Assembly: GCF_025698945.1 (NCBI RefSeq)
Contig: NZ_JAILWM010000003.1
Coordinates: forward strand, 124,001 to 188,000
DNA from: Nitrosopumilus sp.
Lineage (GTDB): Archaea > Thermoproteota > Nitrososphaeria > Nitrososphaerales > Nitrosopumilaceae
DNA: 64,000 bases
Direction: 5' to 3'
Made by a program: the position numbers and the translations under genes. Each line of letters begins with the position of its first letter. The first letter of the stretch is position 1. The notes beneath the pieces were generated by a model. The model saw nothing but the letters and a program-made list of their open reading frames with translations, made no database searches and was not told the DNA's origin. This document shows positions 35,940 to 43,267 of this stretch, piece after piece.

Positions 35940-37607
35940 ATGCGGCTTAATTACTATGATATCAAAAAGCATGTGCTTAGAGCCAGAAAATTAGTAATAA
36001 AGGGCACAAATACTGCAGGATCTGGACATCCTGGTGGATCTTTTTCAATGGCTGAAATCTTGGGATGCCTATTTGTAAAGTATCTCAAATTTGATCCTAA
36101 AAATCCACAATGGGAAGATCGAGACCGATTGGTGTTGTCAAAAGGCCATGCAGCACCTGGACTATTCTCAAACATGGCAGTTGCAGGATATTTTCCTGAA
36201 TCCGAAATAGAAACATTGAGAAAGTTTGGCAGTAAATTGCAAGGTCATCCTGATTTGAAATGTCCTGGCGTAGAATTTTGTGGGGGCTCACTAGGCACTG
36301 GATTGTCCTATTCTATTGGAATTGCACTTGCTGGAAAGATTGACTCAAAAAATTATCATGTTTACACAATAATTGGAGATGGTGAATCTGATGAAGGACA
36401 AATTTGGGAAGCTGCAATGACTGCTGCAAAATACAAAGTGGATAACCTAACCGTTTTTCTTGACAGAAATTTTATCCAGCAGGATTCTTACACTGAAAAA
36501 ATTATGCCACTTGATGAAAGATTGGAAGGCGATGATCTCTCTGAAATGTGGAAAGATGCCTCCAGATGGAAGACTGGTGATAAGTGGAGATCATTTGGAT
36601 GGAATGTAATTGAAATTGATGGACATAGAATAGAACAAATTGATGCAGCAATTGCAAAAGCAAATGCAACTAAAGGAGTTCCAACTATGATCATTTCTAG
36701 AACAATCAAAGGAAAAGCAGTAGAACACATGGAGGATAATCCTCAATGGCATGGAAAAGCACCTGATTCCGATGTTGTTCCGATAATTAATCTTGAATTG
36801 GATTCTCAATTTATGATTGCCCCATCAATTATTGCTGGAGATATGACCAATCTTGAAAACGAGATCAAGAGATGTGTTTCAGGCAGAGCTGATTACATTC
36901 ATCTTGATGTTATGGATGGCCAATTTGTTCCAAACAAAACATTTGATCATAATAAAATTAAAGAATTAAGACCATTAACCGTAATTCCTTTTGATTCACA
37001 TCTAATGATTAACGAACCAGTAAAACATGTTAAAGATTACATTGATGCTGGAAGTGATATTATTACTGTTCATGCTGAAGTAACTGATGAATCTAGTTTT
37101 GGAGAAATTTCTGATTTACTAAAACAAAATGGCGTTGGTGTTGGATTTGCAATAAATCCTGAAACTGAATTGCCAGAGTGGTTCTACAAATTTATTCCAT
37201 ATTTAGATCAACTGATTGTAATGTCAGTAGTTCCTGGCAAATCTGGTCAGAAATACATTGAGGAAACTCATACAAAGATGGCTAGACTAAATTCAATTCT
37301 CAAAGAGAATAATTTTTCAGGTTATATCGAGGCTGATGGTGGCGTGAATCTTGAAAATATAGGCTCAATTTTTGCTGATGGTGCAAGAGCTTTTGTTGGT
37401 GGGGGCGCAATTGTTGGCCAATCTGATGTCAGAGCTGCAATTAGGGACTTTAGATCTGAAGTTCTAAAATCAAGAAGAAGAATCCTGCTTGATAAAGCAA
37501 ATGAGTTAGGTGGAGAAGAATTGGTAAACAAATGGATTGAATTGCATGTTGTTGGTGAAAAGAAAGATCAAATTAGAAAAATTGCAGAGGAGGCCAAATA
37601 CATTTGA
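35940..37607 (+). CDS. Transketolase N-half fused to ribulose-phosphate 3-epimerase
   Basis: A 555-residue two-enzyme fusion. Residues ~1-285 are the thiamine diphosphate-binding half of transketolase: SGHPGGSFSMAEIL (~26), LVLSKGHAAPGL, and the TPP motif from GDGESDEG (~146). Residues ~292-515 are a full ribulose-5-phosphate 3-epimerase: MIAPSIIAGD, HLDVMDG (His321, Asp323), DSHLMI (His354) and EADGGV (Asp466). The last ~40 residues are an unassigned charged tail. There is no frameshift. The partner transketolase half overlaps by 4 nt, and transaldolase follows. All are enzymes of the non-oxidative pentose phosphate pathway. Confidence 0.93.
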   Translation: MRLNYYDIKKHVLRARKLVIKGTNTAGSGHPGGSFSMAEILGCLFVKYLKFDPKNPQWEDRDRLVLSKGHAAPGLFSNMAVAGYFPESEIETLRKFGSKLQGHPDLKCPGVEFCGGSLGTGLSYSIGIALAGKIDSKNYHVYTIIGDGESDEGQIWEAAMTAAKYKVDNLTVFLDRNFIQQDSYTEKIMPLDERLEGDDLSEMWKDASRWKTGDKWRSFGWNVIEIDGHRIEQIDAAIAKANATKGVPTMIISRTIKGKAVEHMEDNPQWHGKAPDSDVVPIINLELDSQFMIAPSIIAGDMTNLENEIKRCVSGRADYIHLDVMDGQFVPNKTFDHNKIKELRPLTVIPFDSHLMINEPVKHVKDYIDAGSDIITVHAEVTDESSFGEISDLLKQNGVGVGFAINPETELPEWFYKFIPYLDQLIVMSVVPGKSGQKYIEETHTKMARLNSILKENNFSGYIEADGGVNLENIGSIFADGARAFVGGGAIVGQSDVRAAIRDFRSEVLKSRRRILLDKANELGGEELVNKWIELHVVGEKKDQIRKIAEEAKYI

Positions 37608-38578
37608 ATGAACCAATACTGACTGATATGCGTTCAGAGTATTCCAAATCTCTGATTCAAGCTGGAAAAGATAACCCTAATGTCGTAGTTTTGGGTGCTG
37701 ATACTACTGATTCACTAAAGACATCCAGTTTTGAAAAAGAATTTCCAAATAGATTCTTTAATGTTGGAATTGCAGAAGCAAACCTTGTTACTACTTCAGC
37801 TGGATTAGCAGCATCAGGAAAAATTTCATTTGCCAGTACTTATGCTATATTCTTACCTGGAAGAGCAGTTGATCAGATAAGAAATAACATTGCATATCCT
37901 TCACCACCTGGAAAAAAAGGTCTTAATGTAAAATTAGTAGTATCTCATGGAGGATTATCAGTAGGACCTGATGGCGGCTCACACCAACAAATTGAAGATA
38001 TTGCTATTATGAGGGTAATTCCTAATTTTAGAGTCTTTATTCCAGCTGATACTGTTGCAGTTTCTAAATTAACTCAATTAATGGCAAGAGAGTATGGTCC
38101 ATTTTACATGAGAATGGCAAGATCAAAAACTCCACTAGTTCATTCAGAAAATCAAGAATTTCAGACAGGTAAAGCAATTACACTAAGGGATGGCTCGGAT
38201 TGTACAATTGCGGCATGTGGAATTACTGTAAGGATGGCATTAGAGGCAGCTGAGACATTACAAAAAGAAGGAATTTCTTGTAGGGTGTTGGATATGTTTT
38301 CAATAAAACCAATTGATAATCAACTACTAGAAAAGGCTGCAAGAGAAACAGGCTCTATAGTTACCACTGAAGAGCATAATATTTTTGGTGGAATGGGCTC
38401 AGCGGTAGCAGAATCTGTTTCTGAATCTTATCCAGTCCCAATCAAAAGAATTGGCGCACAAGATATGTTTGGAGAATCAGCACGAGATGATGAAATTCCA
38501 CTACTCTTAGAAAAACACGGAATAACATCTTTTAATATAGCAAAACAAGTCAAAGAAATTAGGAGCAAAAAGTTATGA
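37604..38578 (+). CDS. Transketolase C-terminal subunit
   Basis: Pyrimidine-binding and C-terminal domains of split transketolase, 324 residues. VGIAEANLVTTSAGLAASGK (~52-72) contains the conserved Glu that activates thiamine; then VVSHGGLSVGPDGGSHQ and the C-terminal TTEEHNIFGGMGSAVAE. It must pair with the fusion protein encoded just upstream (ATGA overlap) to form active transketolase. It overlaps transaldolase by 4 nt, so the operon is translationally coupled throughout. Confidence 0.94.
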   Translation: MNEPILTDMRSEYSKSLIQAGKDNPNVVVLGADTTDSLKTSSFEKEFPNRFFNVGIAEANLVTTSAGLAASGKISFASTYAIFLPGRAVDQIRNNIAYPSPPGKKGLNVKLVVSHGGLSVGPDGGSHQQIEDIAIMRVIPNFRVFIPADTVAVSKLTQLMAREYGPFYMRMARSKTPLVHSENQEFQTGKAITLRDGSDCTIAACGITVRMALEAAETLQKEGISCRVLDMFSIKPIDNQLLEKAARETGSIVTTEEHNIFGGMGSAVAESVSESYPVPIKRIGAQDMFGESARDDEIPLLLEKHGITSFNIAKQVKEIRSKKL

Positions 38579-39240
38579 AGATATTTCTTGATACTGCTAA
38601 TCTTGAATCTATAAAAAAATTCAATGACATGGGTTTGCTTGATGGCATTACTACAAACCCCTCATTAATGTCAAAAGAAGGCGGTAATCCTAAAGATGCT
38701 ATGGAAGAGATTACAAAAATTATCAAAGGAGATGTAAGCTTAGAAGTTGTAAGCACTGAATATTCTGGAATGATGGAAGAAGGAAAACGATTACGTGAGT
38801 ATGGTGATAATGTTGTAGTTAAAGTTCCAATGACTCCTGATGGCCTAAAAGCTTGTAAATCATTATCATCTGAAGGAATTCCTGTAAATGTTACTTTGAT
38901 TTTTTCTCCCAACCAAGCTTTACTTGCTGCAAAATCTGGCGCAAAATATGTTAGTCCATTTATTGGAAGGCTAGATGATGTAGGACAAGATGGAATGAAT
39001 CTAATAAAAGAGATTAAAGAAATTTTCTCCAATTATGATTTTAAAACACAAATTCTTGTTGCAAGTGTTCGTCATCCAATTCATGTAGTTGATGCAGCTA
39101 AAATTGGTGCAGATGTAGTGACACTACCTCCTGCTGTACTAGACAAAATGCTTCAGCACCCATTAACTAAAATTGGATTGGATAATTTCCTAGCAGACTG
39201 GGAAAAACTCAAAGCTGGAAATCCAGATGTCAAAATCTAA
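38575..39240 (+). CDS. Transaldolase (TalC/FsaA type)
   Basis: 221-residue TIM-barrel aldolase starting MKIFLDTANLESIKKF. Schiff-base region VVVKVPMTPDGLKACKSL carries the Lys (~residue 84), and SPFIGRLDDVGQDG and VASVRHPIHV are typical of the small transaldolase / fructose-6-phosphate aldolase subfamily. In this operon it should interconvert sedoheptulose 7-phosphate plus glyceraldehyde 3-phosphate with erythrose 4-phosphate plus fructose 6-phosphate. Last gene of the pentose phosphate operon. Confidence 0.92.
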   Translation: MKIFLDTANLESIKKFNDMGLLDGITTNPSLMSKEGGNPKDAMEEITKIIKGDVSLEVVSTEYSGMMEEGKRLREYGDNVVVKVPMTPDGLKACKSLSSEGIPVNVTLIFSPNQALLAAKSGAKYVSPFIGRLDDVGQDGMNLIKEIKEIFSNYDFKTQILVASVRHPIHVVDAAKIGADVVTLPPAVLDKMLQHPLTKIGLDNFLADWEKLKAGNPDVKI

Positions 39241-39290: not shown

Positions 39291-39563
39291 TTAATCTGAA
39301 CCTTTGTTCTTGCTTTTTCTTGAACCGGTTCCTCTACCTGTTATTCTGGTCATTCCTTCTGTAGAAGGTCTTGGTTTTGGATCAGGTTCATCTCCTAGTC
39401 TTCTTGAACCAGTACCCCTACCTGTGTGAACCATTCTATTTGAGGCAGCTTTTTTCCTTGCTTCTTGAATTTTTCTAAATTCGTCACCAGACCATTTTGT
39501 TGGATCATCATCAACTTCAATAGTTCCAGTGCCTCTTCCGGTTCGAATTCTAATTTTACCCAT
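39291..39563 (-). CDS. TGRGTG-repeat basic protein of unknown function
   Basis: 90-residue Arg/Lys/Gly-rich protein with three copies of a TGRGTG motif: RTGRGTGTIEVDDDP near residue 8, HTGRGTGSRRLGDEPDP near 47 and ITGRGTGSRKSK near 75. The repeats are separated by short acidic or helical stretches (SGDEFRKIQEARKKAA). It is presumably disordered, with glycine/arginine motifs able to bind RNA or DNA. I know no family for it. It is convergent with the transaldolase gene, 50 nt away. Confidence 0.7.
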   Translation of the reverse strand: MGKIRIRTGRGTGTIEVDDDPTKWSGDEFRKIQEARKKAASNRMVHTGRGTGSRRLGDEPDPKPRPSTEGMTRITGRGTGSRKSKNKGSD

Positions 39564-41101: not shown

Positions 41102-43267
41102 TTGAAAGTAGCTCTAATCTACAATGAAACACAAATTGATCCAAATGATGTAATCAATGTCTTTGGAATGACTACCAAAGAACATTATAGCTCAAAAGCA
41201 GTTGAAAGAGTTGCAAGAGCTTTAGAAAAAGGAGGTCACACTGTAAAAGTTATTGAAGGAGACATCCATCTTGCTGATGAATTAAAAGAATTCATGCCAA
41301 AAGTAGTTGCAGGTGAAACACCTGGAATGGTTTTCAATATGGCGTATGGTATTCAGGGACAAAATAGGTACACACATGTACCTGCAATGATGGAGATGCT
41401 TGGAATTCCATACATAGGTTCTGGACCAGCTGGTCACGCAATTGTTCAAGATAAAGTAATGACAAAAATAATTTTACAGAAAAATAATATTCCAACTCCT
41501 GGCTTTTGGGTATTTCGAACACCTGAAGACATTCATGATGATTTAGTTTTTCCTGTGATTGTAAAACCAAAACTGGAATCTACTTCTATGGGGATGGAAG
41601 TTGTAGATAATTGGGATGATCTTAGGAAAGCAGTTAAAGTCCAGATTGAAAAATTCCAACAAGATATACTTGTAGAACAGTTCATTTCAGGAAGGGAATT
41701 TGCAGTAGGAGTATTAGGTAATAATCCTAACATAGACATTCTTCCAATTGTTGAAATTAATCTTGATACTCCAGATCAAATTCAAACGATTTCGGATAAA
41801 AAGAAAGCGGGCGGTGTTGACAAAACATGTCCTGCTAAATTATCTAAAGAAAAAACTGAGGAGATGAGACAAATGTGTATAAAGGCATTTGCGTCTTTGG
41901 GGCTAAATGATTACAGTAGAGTGGATTTTAGAATGGATAAAGATGAAAATCTCTACATTCTTGAATTGAACTCTATGGCAAGTTTAGGTAAAGGCGGTTC
42001 ATTATTTTATGCTGCTAAAACTGCTGGTTATACCTATGAATCACTTATCAATAAAATATTAGACATTGCAGTGATTAGATACTTTGGAACTTCTATTCAT
42101 CATCATGAAAATGAAGTTGATCTCACCCAACCATTACGCGTAGTAGCTAGAACATATCTGCGTGGACATCTACATACTCTAAAAGAAACATTAAGAGATT
42201 TTGTAAATCTCAACACACATGTATACAATTTAGAAAATGTAAATCAATTAGGAGCAATTATTTCTAAGAGATTAAAACATCTTGGATTCACTGAGCATAT
42301 TCATCGACAGCCAGATGTAGGAAATTTCCATTATTTTAAAAATCATCCAGAATCAGAAAATGACATTTTGATTGTCTCTCATCTTGATACACATTATGGT
42401 CCCGATGATTTAGTCAGTTATTATGAAGATGATGATAGAATTGTTGGTTCAGGTATAGCTGAAAGTAAAGGTGGACTTGCTGTAATGTTGGGTGCACTTC
42501 ACGCCTTACGCTATGCAAAAAAACTCAAAAAAGTCAGATGTGCAATATTGCTTACCACTGATGATAGTTTAGGGGGAAGATACAGTAAGAGATTTGTTAA
42601 AGAATACTCTAAAAAATCACATTACATAGTAGGATTAAAATCTGCTAGTATTGATGGTGGAATAATTACAACTTGTTATGGTAGAAGTGATTACAACATT
42701 AGATTCACCACAGCTTCTGAACAATTAACTTCAGATATTCATGGAATTATACCAGTTCTAGCAAAAAAATTATCTGTAATTGAAAAACTTTCTAAGGATG
42801 AAAAAGATTATCGATTAAGAACTACCTCTGTTGTTGCTCAAGGATCTCATGGTCAAACACCCAACTATGCATCACTATCATTAACTTGTAGTTACAAAAC
42901 TGAAAAATTGGGTACATTACTTGATACTAAAATTAACACTATTATGAAAAAAAAAGAAACTGGTATCAAACTAGACGTATCAATCAATAAGATACAAACA
43001 AGACCCCCAGTAATAGAAGAAGAATCTGATACGAAATTCTATGAATTAGTTGAGGATCTTGCTAAAAAACATGAAATAAAAATCAAAAAACACTCTCAAA
43101 TAATATCATCTGATATCAGTAATGTTCCATCGAAACTTCCAGCTCTTGATGGGTTTGGACCAATTGGCCACAAATATCGTTCCCCTAAAGAATACATTGT
43201 TCATGATAGTGTGGTAGAAAGATCAGCATTACTAGCCTCTGTAATTTACAAATGTGCTGAAAAATAA
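41102..43267 (+). CDS. Ddl-like ATP-grasp ligase fused to a degenerate M20 peptidase domain
   Basis: 721-residue fusion from a TTG start. Residues ~1-325 match D-Ala-D-Ala ligase: PYIGSGPAGHAIVQDKVMTK, VIVKPKLESTSMGMEV, VEQFISGREFAVGVLG, GGVDKTCPAKL and the metal/ATP site RVDFRMD...ELNSMASL. Residues ~350-721 follow the M20 peptidase layout (SHLDTHYGP, GSGIAESKGG, TTDDSLGG, DGFGPIGHKYRSPKEY). There the bridging Asp is Glu454, the Glu-Glu pair is Asp488-Ser489 and the C-terminal metal His is Arg693. The ligase half therefore looks functional and the peptidase half does not. Archaea of this type lack peptidoglycan, so the substrate is another amino acid or peptide. Confidence 0.88.
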   Translation: MKVALIYNETQIDPNDVINVFGMTTKEHYSSKAVERVARALEKGGHTVKVIEGDIHLADELKEFMPKVVAGETPGMVFNMAYGIQGQNRYTHVPAMMEMLGIPYIGSGPAGHAIVQDKVMTKIILQKNNIPTPGFWVFRTPEDIHDDLVFPVIVKPKLESTSMGMEVVDNWDDLRKAVKVQIEKFQQDILVEQFISGREFAVGVLGNNPNIDILPIVEINLDTPDQIQTISDKKKAGGVDKTCPAKLSKEKTEEMRQMCIKAFASLGLNDYSRVDFRMDKDENLYILELNSMASLGKGGSLFYAAKTAGYTYESLINKILDIAVIRYFGTSIHHHENEVDLTQPLRVVARTYLRGHLHTLKETLRDFVNLNTHVYNLENVNQLGAIISKRLKHLGFTEHIHRQPDVGNFHYFKNHPESENDILIVSHLDTHYGPDDLVSYYEDDDRIVGSGIAESKGGLAVMLGALHALRYAKKLKKVRCAILLTTDDSLGGRYSKRFVKEYSKKSHYIVGLKSASIDGGIITTCYGRSDYNIRFTTASEQLTSDIHGIIPVLAKKLSVIEKLSKDEKDYRLRTTSVVAQGSHGQTPNYASLSLTCSYKTEKLGTLLDTKINTIMKKKETGIKLDVSINKIQTRPPVIEEESDTKFYELVEDLAKKHEIKIKKHSQIISSDISNVPSKLPALDGFGPIGHKYRSPKEYIVHDSVVERSALLASVIYKCAEK

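Follow-up and report, generated by a model that had tools for sequence, protein, structure and literature searches.

Why does an archaeon without peptidoglycan carry a gene that joins a relative of D-Ala-D-Ala ligase (Ddl) to an M20 peptidase domain, and what might the resulting protein make? We addressed this question for an open reading frame at positions 41102-43267 (+ strand) of a 64,000-nucleotide stretch of a Nitrosopumilus sp. genome, hereafter the window. The frame was confirmed to be open, starts with TTG and encodes 721 amino acids; a tRNA-His gene lies upstream, with 78 bases between the two. Pfam and alignment placed a Ddl-like ATP-grasp ligase domain at residues 1-337 (41102-42112, +), with Dala_Dala_lig_C (PF07478) matching residues 141-320 (E = 5.7e-35). 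Residues 343-721 (42128-43264, +) were assigned to an M20 domain similar to carboxypeptidase G2 (CPG2) by PDB match, predicted fold and alignment, and Peptidase_M20 matched residues 424-716 (E = 4e-12). In a PDB sequence search, Ddl chains covered residues 69-328 and CPG2 covered the second half. The AlphaFold2 model of residues 343-721, whose blocks mostly had pLDDT values of 70-90, matched CPG2 (1cg2) with a Z-score of 38.1 over 375 residues at 20% identity, and comprised both the catalytic and the lid domain of the M20 fold. The ligase half was modelled poorly in two predictions (pLDDT 36 in one) with shallow alignments, so that its family assignment rests on sequence. The presence of both domains in one reading frame, first proposed in a sequence-only reading of the window, was borne out by Pfam, the PDB search and the fold match.

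The ligase half could be placed in the Ddl superfamily of ATP-grasp carboxylate-amine ligases based on the PF07478 match and on the Mg/ATP-site residues R273, D275, E288 and N290, which were invariant in the homolog alignment, as were K155 and E192. The nucleotide-site blocks that had been noted from the sequence are therefore intact, and carboxylate-amine ligase chemistry would be expected, as in Ddl and VanA (PF07478, TIGR01205), with which the fusion shares the ATP-grasp fold. However, the term Ddl does not hold in its strict sense. Alignment to Ddls encoded on plasmids, including one from a mur/fts cluster, showed that the D-Ala-site motifs GGxSxExxVS (N-terminal), HGxxGEDGxxQ and PGMTxxS were absent and family-specific ones stood in their place, including a non-canonical loop, N290-S-M-A-S-L-G296, where Ddl has PGMTxxS. 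All curated NCBIfam cut-offs for Ddl were also missed (NF002378, 171.7 versus 243 bits; TIGR01205, 157.5 versus 245.65). Given the absent motifs and the missed cut-offs, we conclude that the fusion is not a D-Ala-D-Ala ligase. That it is nevertheless a true Ddl, or a remnant of peptidoglycan synthesis, would agree with Ddl models being its best family models, but this is highly improbable and already contradicted by the scores and motifs above and by a search of the window's genome, in which no N-terminal domain of a Mur ligase was found. The latter result led us to reject a peptidoglycan role, and supports the initial description of the host as an archaeon without peptidoglycan.

The M20 half has the whole fold of CPG2, an M20A glutamate carboxypeptidase, but its metal ligands and catalytic Glu are replaced. 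Site columns were taken from an alignment with CPG2 and two plasmid-encoded M20 enzymes, and the CPG2 numbers given here are those that we take to correspond; the row of a CPG2 homolog (L124), translated out of frame, was disregarded. The HxD motif keeps its first metal His and its Asp (H427-L-D429; 42380-42388, +). E454-S455 (42461-42466, +; ADDKGG to AESKGG) replaces the metal-bridging Asp, presumably Asp141; D488-S489 (42563-42568, +) replaces the catalytic Glu and a metal-ligand Glu, presumably Glu175-Glu176; K513 (42638-42640, +) replaces the third acidic metal ligand, presumably Glu200; and R693 (43178-43180, +) replaces the last metal-ligand His, presumably His385, an equivalence drawn from sequence alignment within a good fold match rather than from inspection of coordinates. 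Four of the five metal ligands are thus changed (D to E454, E to S489, E to K513, H to R693) and Asp488 stands in for the catalytic Glu, so that the set of an active M20 metallopeptidase (His, Asp, Glu, Glu/Asp and His as ligands, plus the catalytic Glu) is not present. Glu454 alone could still bind metal, and it is S489, K513 and R693 that mark the decisive losses. Three of these sites had been recognized from the sequence (Asp to Glu454, Glu-Glu to Asp-Ser and His to Arg693) and all three were recovered in the CPG2 alignment, while the fourth, K513 for Glu200, had been missed. The SHAG His and GN Asn motifs of CPG2 were not found in the M20 alignment of the fusion. R634 (43001-43003, +), in contrast to the metal ligands, is retained and invariant; it aligns with CPG2 Arg324, which we take to anchor the substrate carboxylate, and such an Arg is what an M20 substrate-binding module would be expected to keep.

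The M20 substitutions, together with H427, D429 and R634, showed no change in an alignment of 15 homologs reaching down to 55% identity overall and 44% in the M20 domain. The sole variation seen was a Lys at position 693 in one further relative (G261, locus L076). Near pairs gave dN/dS values of ∼0.1 (M20 half) and 0.05 (ligase half), which are rough given that synonymous sites were almost saturated, and purifying selection acts on both halves. Given the fixed substitutions and this selection, we interpret the M20 half as a maintained, non-hydrolytic pseudoenzyme and not as a decaying domain, and its conserved pocket suggests a putative ligand-binding role, in line with the proposal in the sequence-only reading of a former peptidase turned binding module. 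An alternative is that the M20 half serves only structurally, as a dimerization scaffold that stems from a bifunctional ancestor able both to make and to cleave, binds no ligand and leaves all of the work to the ligase. The loss of metal ligands, the lid/dimer domain of the M20 fold and the approximately twofold faster evolution of this half (44–49% identity to distant members, versus 67–69% for the ligase half) are compatible with such a scaffold. However, the former active-site positions (E454-S-K-G-G, D487-D-S-L-G-G, K513, R634 and R693) belong to the best-conserved part of the domain, which is not expected of a pure scaffold, and we consider this alternative unlikely. In one genome (G172; L074:4405-7188), the fusion is a 927-aa reading frame with low-complexity insertions rich in His, Gly, Ala and Thr between and inside the domains.

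The fusion, full or partial, was detected in 52 of 250 Nitrosopumilaceae genomes from five genera, which excludes that it occurs only in the genome of the window. Three further Nitrosopumilaceae genomes matched through Ddl-only genes of another branch. Among 400 genomes of the class, none outside Nitrosopumilaceae had the fusion, and across 300 genomes of the phylum the M20 half was present only as part of the fusion, two weak matches excepted. We found no description of the fusion, or of the three-gene set described below, in the literature that we searched. In other Thermoproteota, separate Ddl-like genes adjoin KamA and GNAT genes. A beta-lysine route of this kind was rejected for Nitrosopumilus, which has just a radical-SAM relative at 26% identity, present with and without the fusion. 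The KamA - Ddl-like - GNAT cluster is conserved in other Thermoproteota (L083, L089 and L090) and includes a second, divergent Ddl-like gene; at L083, a gene read by eye as a trehalose-synthase-like glycosyltransferase adjoins it. A second Ddl-like fusion, of ∼655 aa, also occurs in other Thermoproteota (L016:385-2349, +; L091:7022-9010, -) and joins a class I methyltransferase, a part read by eye, to a Ddl-like ATP-grasp domain.

Two partner genes, which had escaped the sequence-only reading, give the strongest indication of a pathway. Neighborhood clustering showed that a gene similar to gamma-glutamyltransferase (GGT) and one similar to N-formylglutamate amidohydrolase (FGase) adjoin the fusion at many loci, and whole-genome searches detected them in 51 and 48 of the 250 Nitrosopumilaceae genomes, respectively. 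Among the 52 genomes with the fusion, 50 had the GGT (Fisher p = 5e-49) and 47 had the FGase (p = 6e-44), both tests covering the 250 genomes and ignoring kinship; several exceptions were fragmented or incomplete assemblies. GGT and fusion were on one contig in 44 of 51 genomes, 19 of them directly adjacent, 40 within 8 kb and all 44 within 20 kb, and in single-contig genomes the distance was at most 13 kb in 10 of 10 examined. The window's genome has its GGT-FGase pair on a different contig (L109, G000:C1:751217-753606), so that the link there is one of co-inheritance and not of adjacency. Simple linkage as the cause of the co-occurrence is argued against by the many rearranged arrangements and by the rhizobial pair described below. 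The GGT partner passes TIGR00066 (381.7 versus 357.85 bits) and has the catalytic Thr and a TTH motif, but the counterparts of E. coli GGT R114, N411, Q430 and D433, the canonical residues that we take to bind the gamma-glutamyl group, are shifted or replaced. The FGase partner belongs to Pfam FGase PF05013 (E = 7.6e-46 for the relative from G007) and falls short of TIGR02017, the model for the N-formylglutamate deformylase HutG (95.6 versus a cut-off of 278.75). A defence system was rejected, as PADLOC returned no match for the fusion, GGT-like or FGase-like proteins, and so was viral cargo, as a search of viral contigs with two patterns confirmed no relative. At one locus (G085, L115), three GGT copies surround the fusion gene.

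Other genes recurring at these loci encode CorA, CNNM/CorC, ion channels, KefB-type antiporters and, at some, Na+/dicarboxylate symporters (antiporters and symporter read by eye). They would fit a narrower form of the pathway explanation, in which the trio makes a peptide-type compatible solute in salt-exposed lineages. Consistent with such an osmolyte, the trio was found in 11 of 15 genomes with a strong ectoine-synthase match (p = 9e-6), and genes for EctB and ectoine synthase are found close to rhizobial relatives. However, the neighbors may represent genomic stress clusters and not pathway members, phylogeny confounds the ectoine enrichment, which could reflect shared ancestry, and many relatives within Nitrosopumilaceae do without the trio. 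A stress or osmotic role is only suggested, and we regard the osmolyte version as rather improbable.

On plasmids, both the ligase and the GGT have their closest counterparts in rhizobia. Among plasmid records, the ligase half was best matched by Bradyrhizobium barranii WP_011090946.1 (44% identity over the ligase part), and among 281 GGT-bearing plasmid records the best matches of the archaeal GGT were GGTs of the same B. barranii operon (37.9%, 301 bits), versus 249 bits for the highest-scoring other organism among the matches listed. This operon has the order KamA-GGT-7TM-ligase (L142:7674-12439), where 7TM is a 7TM_transglut protein and the ligase an ATP-grasp enzyme. The rhizobial ATP-grasp protein is the closest bacterial relative found and shares with the fusion the NSMA(S/A)LG loop and a related GGT as genomic partner, but it lacks the M20 domain and is encoded with KamA and the 7TM protein, and no FGase was seen. 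The archaeal and Bradyrhizobium GGTs both keep the catalytic Thr, have donor-site replacements in common and do not begin with an obvious signal peptide; these features point to a common, non-standard substrate inside the cell. Further rhizobial copies lie near PanD, KamA, EctB, ectoine synthase, a second ATP-grasp enzyme or MFS exporters. Given that the closest bacterial ligases are found near such genes and near an NRPS/PKS gene, the archaeal trio may, in another narrower form of the pathway explanation, make a peptide natural product or signal and not a solute, as in the related clusters on rhizobial symbiotic plasmids. This seems on balance rather improbable, since neither KamA proper nor a dedicated exporter was found with the archaeal trio. 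A Thioflavicoccus plasmid cluster (L108:4464-9945) has a diaminobutyrate transaminase, SbnA/SbnB-like 2,3-diaminopropionate genes, a Ddl-like ligase and KamA.

The explanation that we prefer, to which we give about an even chance, is that the fusion is an ATP-grasp ligase for amino acids whose metal-free M20 half acts as a binding domain, and that it works in a pathway of three genes that yields a small peptide or conjugate. Which genes and domains make up the system was directly observed, and reaction, substrates and product are put forward as follows. The ligase would activate the carboxylate of one amino acid as an acyl phosphate and couple it to the amine of a second one. The M20 fold, with the cations Lys513 and Arg693 in place of metal ligands, would bind the carboxylate end of the substrate or product and hold it for the ligase. 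A cytosolic GGT-like Ntn-hydrolase and an FGase-like zinc amidase may then trim, transfer or recycle the amide, and the pathway probably ends in a small peptide or a conjugate of an amino acid. On the other hand, a relaxed M20 pocket could bind a non-substrate or be just a dimer scaffold, and the window's copy stands apart from its partner genes. More tentatively, a small-peptide pathway could be partly common to marine ammonia-oxidizing archaea and legume symbionts, with the metal-less M20 domain as the substrate or product holder of a peptide ligase and with an obligate GGT-like partner enzyme whose specificity is new.

Pairs of ATP-grasp ligases and peptidase-family proteins occur in other systems. 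In the LysW amino-group-carrier pathway for lysine and arginine, the ATP-grasp ligase LysX/ArgX is paired with the M20 enzyme LysK; unlike the M20 half of the fusion, LysK is an active metalloenzyme encoded by a separate gene. RimK-type (LysX/ArgX-like) genes of ∼297 aa are separate in the same genomes and have weak similarity (∼20–25 bits). The NAGGN osmolyte operon (ngg/asnO with an M42 peptidase) combines an ATP-grasp dipeptide ligase with a metallopeptidase-family partner, but the ATP-grasp and peptidase families differ, the genes are unfused and the peptidase is not reported to be inactive.

Ammonia-oxidizing archaea count among Earth's most abundant cells, and a large part of their metabolism is still unassigned. 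The trio is a defined three-gene unit that single-contig genomes contain and close relatives lack, which allows its product to be sought by metabolome comparison. The M20 half represents a conserved conversion of a peptidase into a putative binding domain, with cations swapped for metal, and the candidate archaeal pathway is tied to uncharacterized operons on rhizobial symbiotic plasmids. Elsewhere in the window, positions 35940-39240 (+) contain, as read by eye, transketolase-like halves followed by a transaldolase-like gene, an apparent pentose-phosphate cluster whose first reading frame runs on into ribulose-phosphate 3-epimerase-like sequence and thus appears to be a fused gene. A possible basic protein of 90 aa, in which TGRGTG motifs recur, is encoded at 39291-39563 (-).
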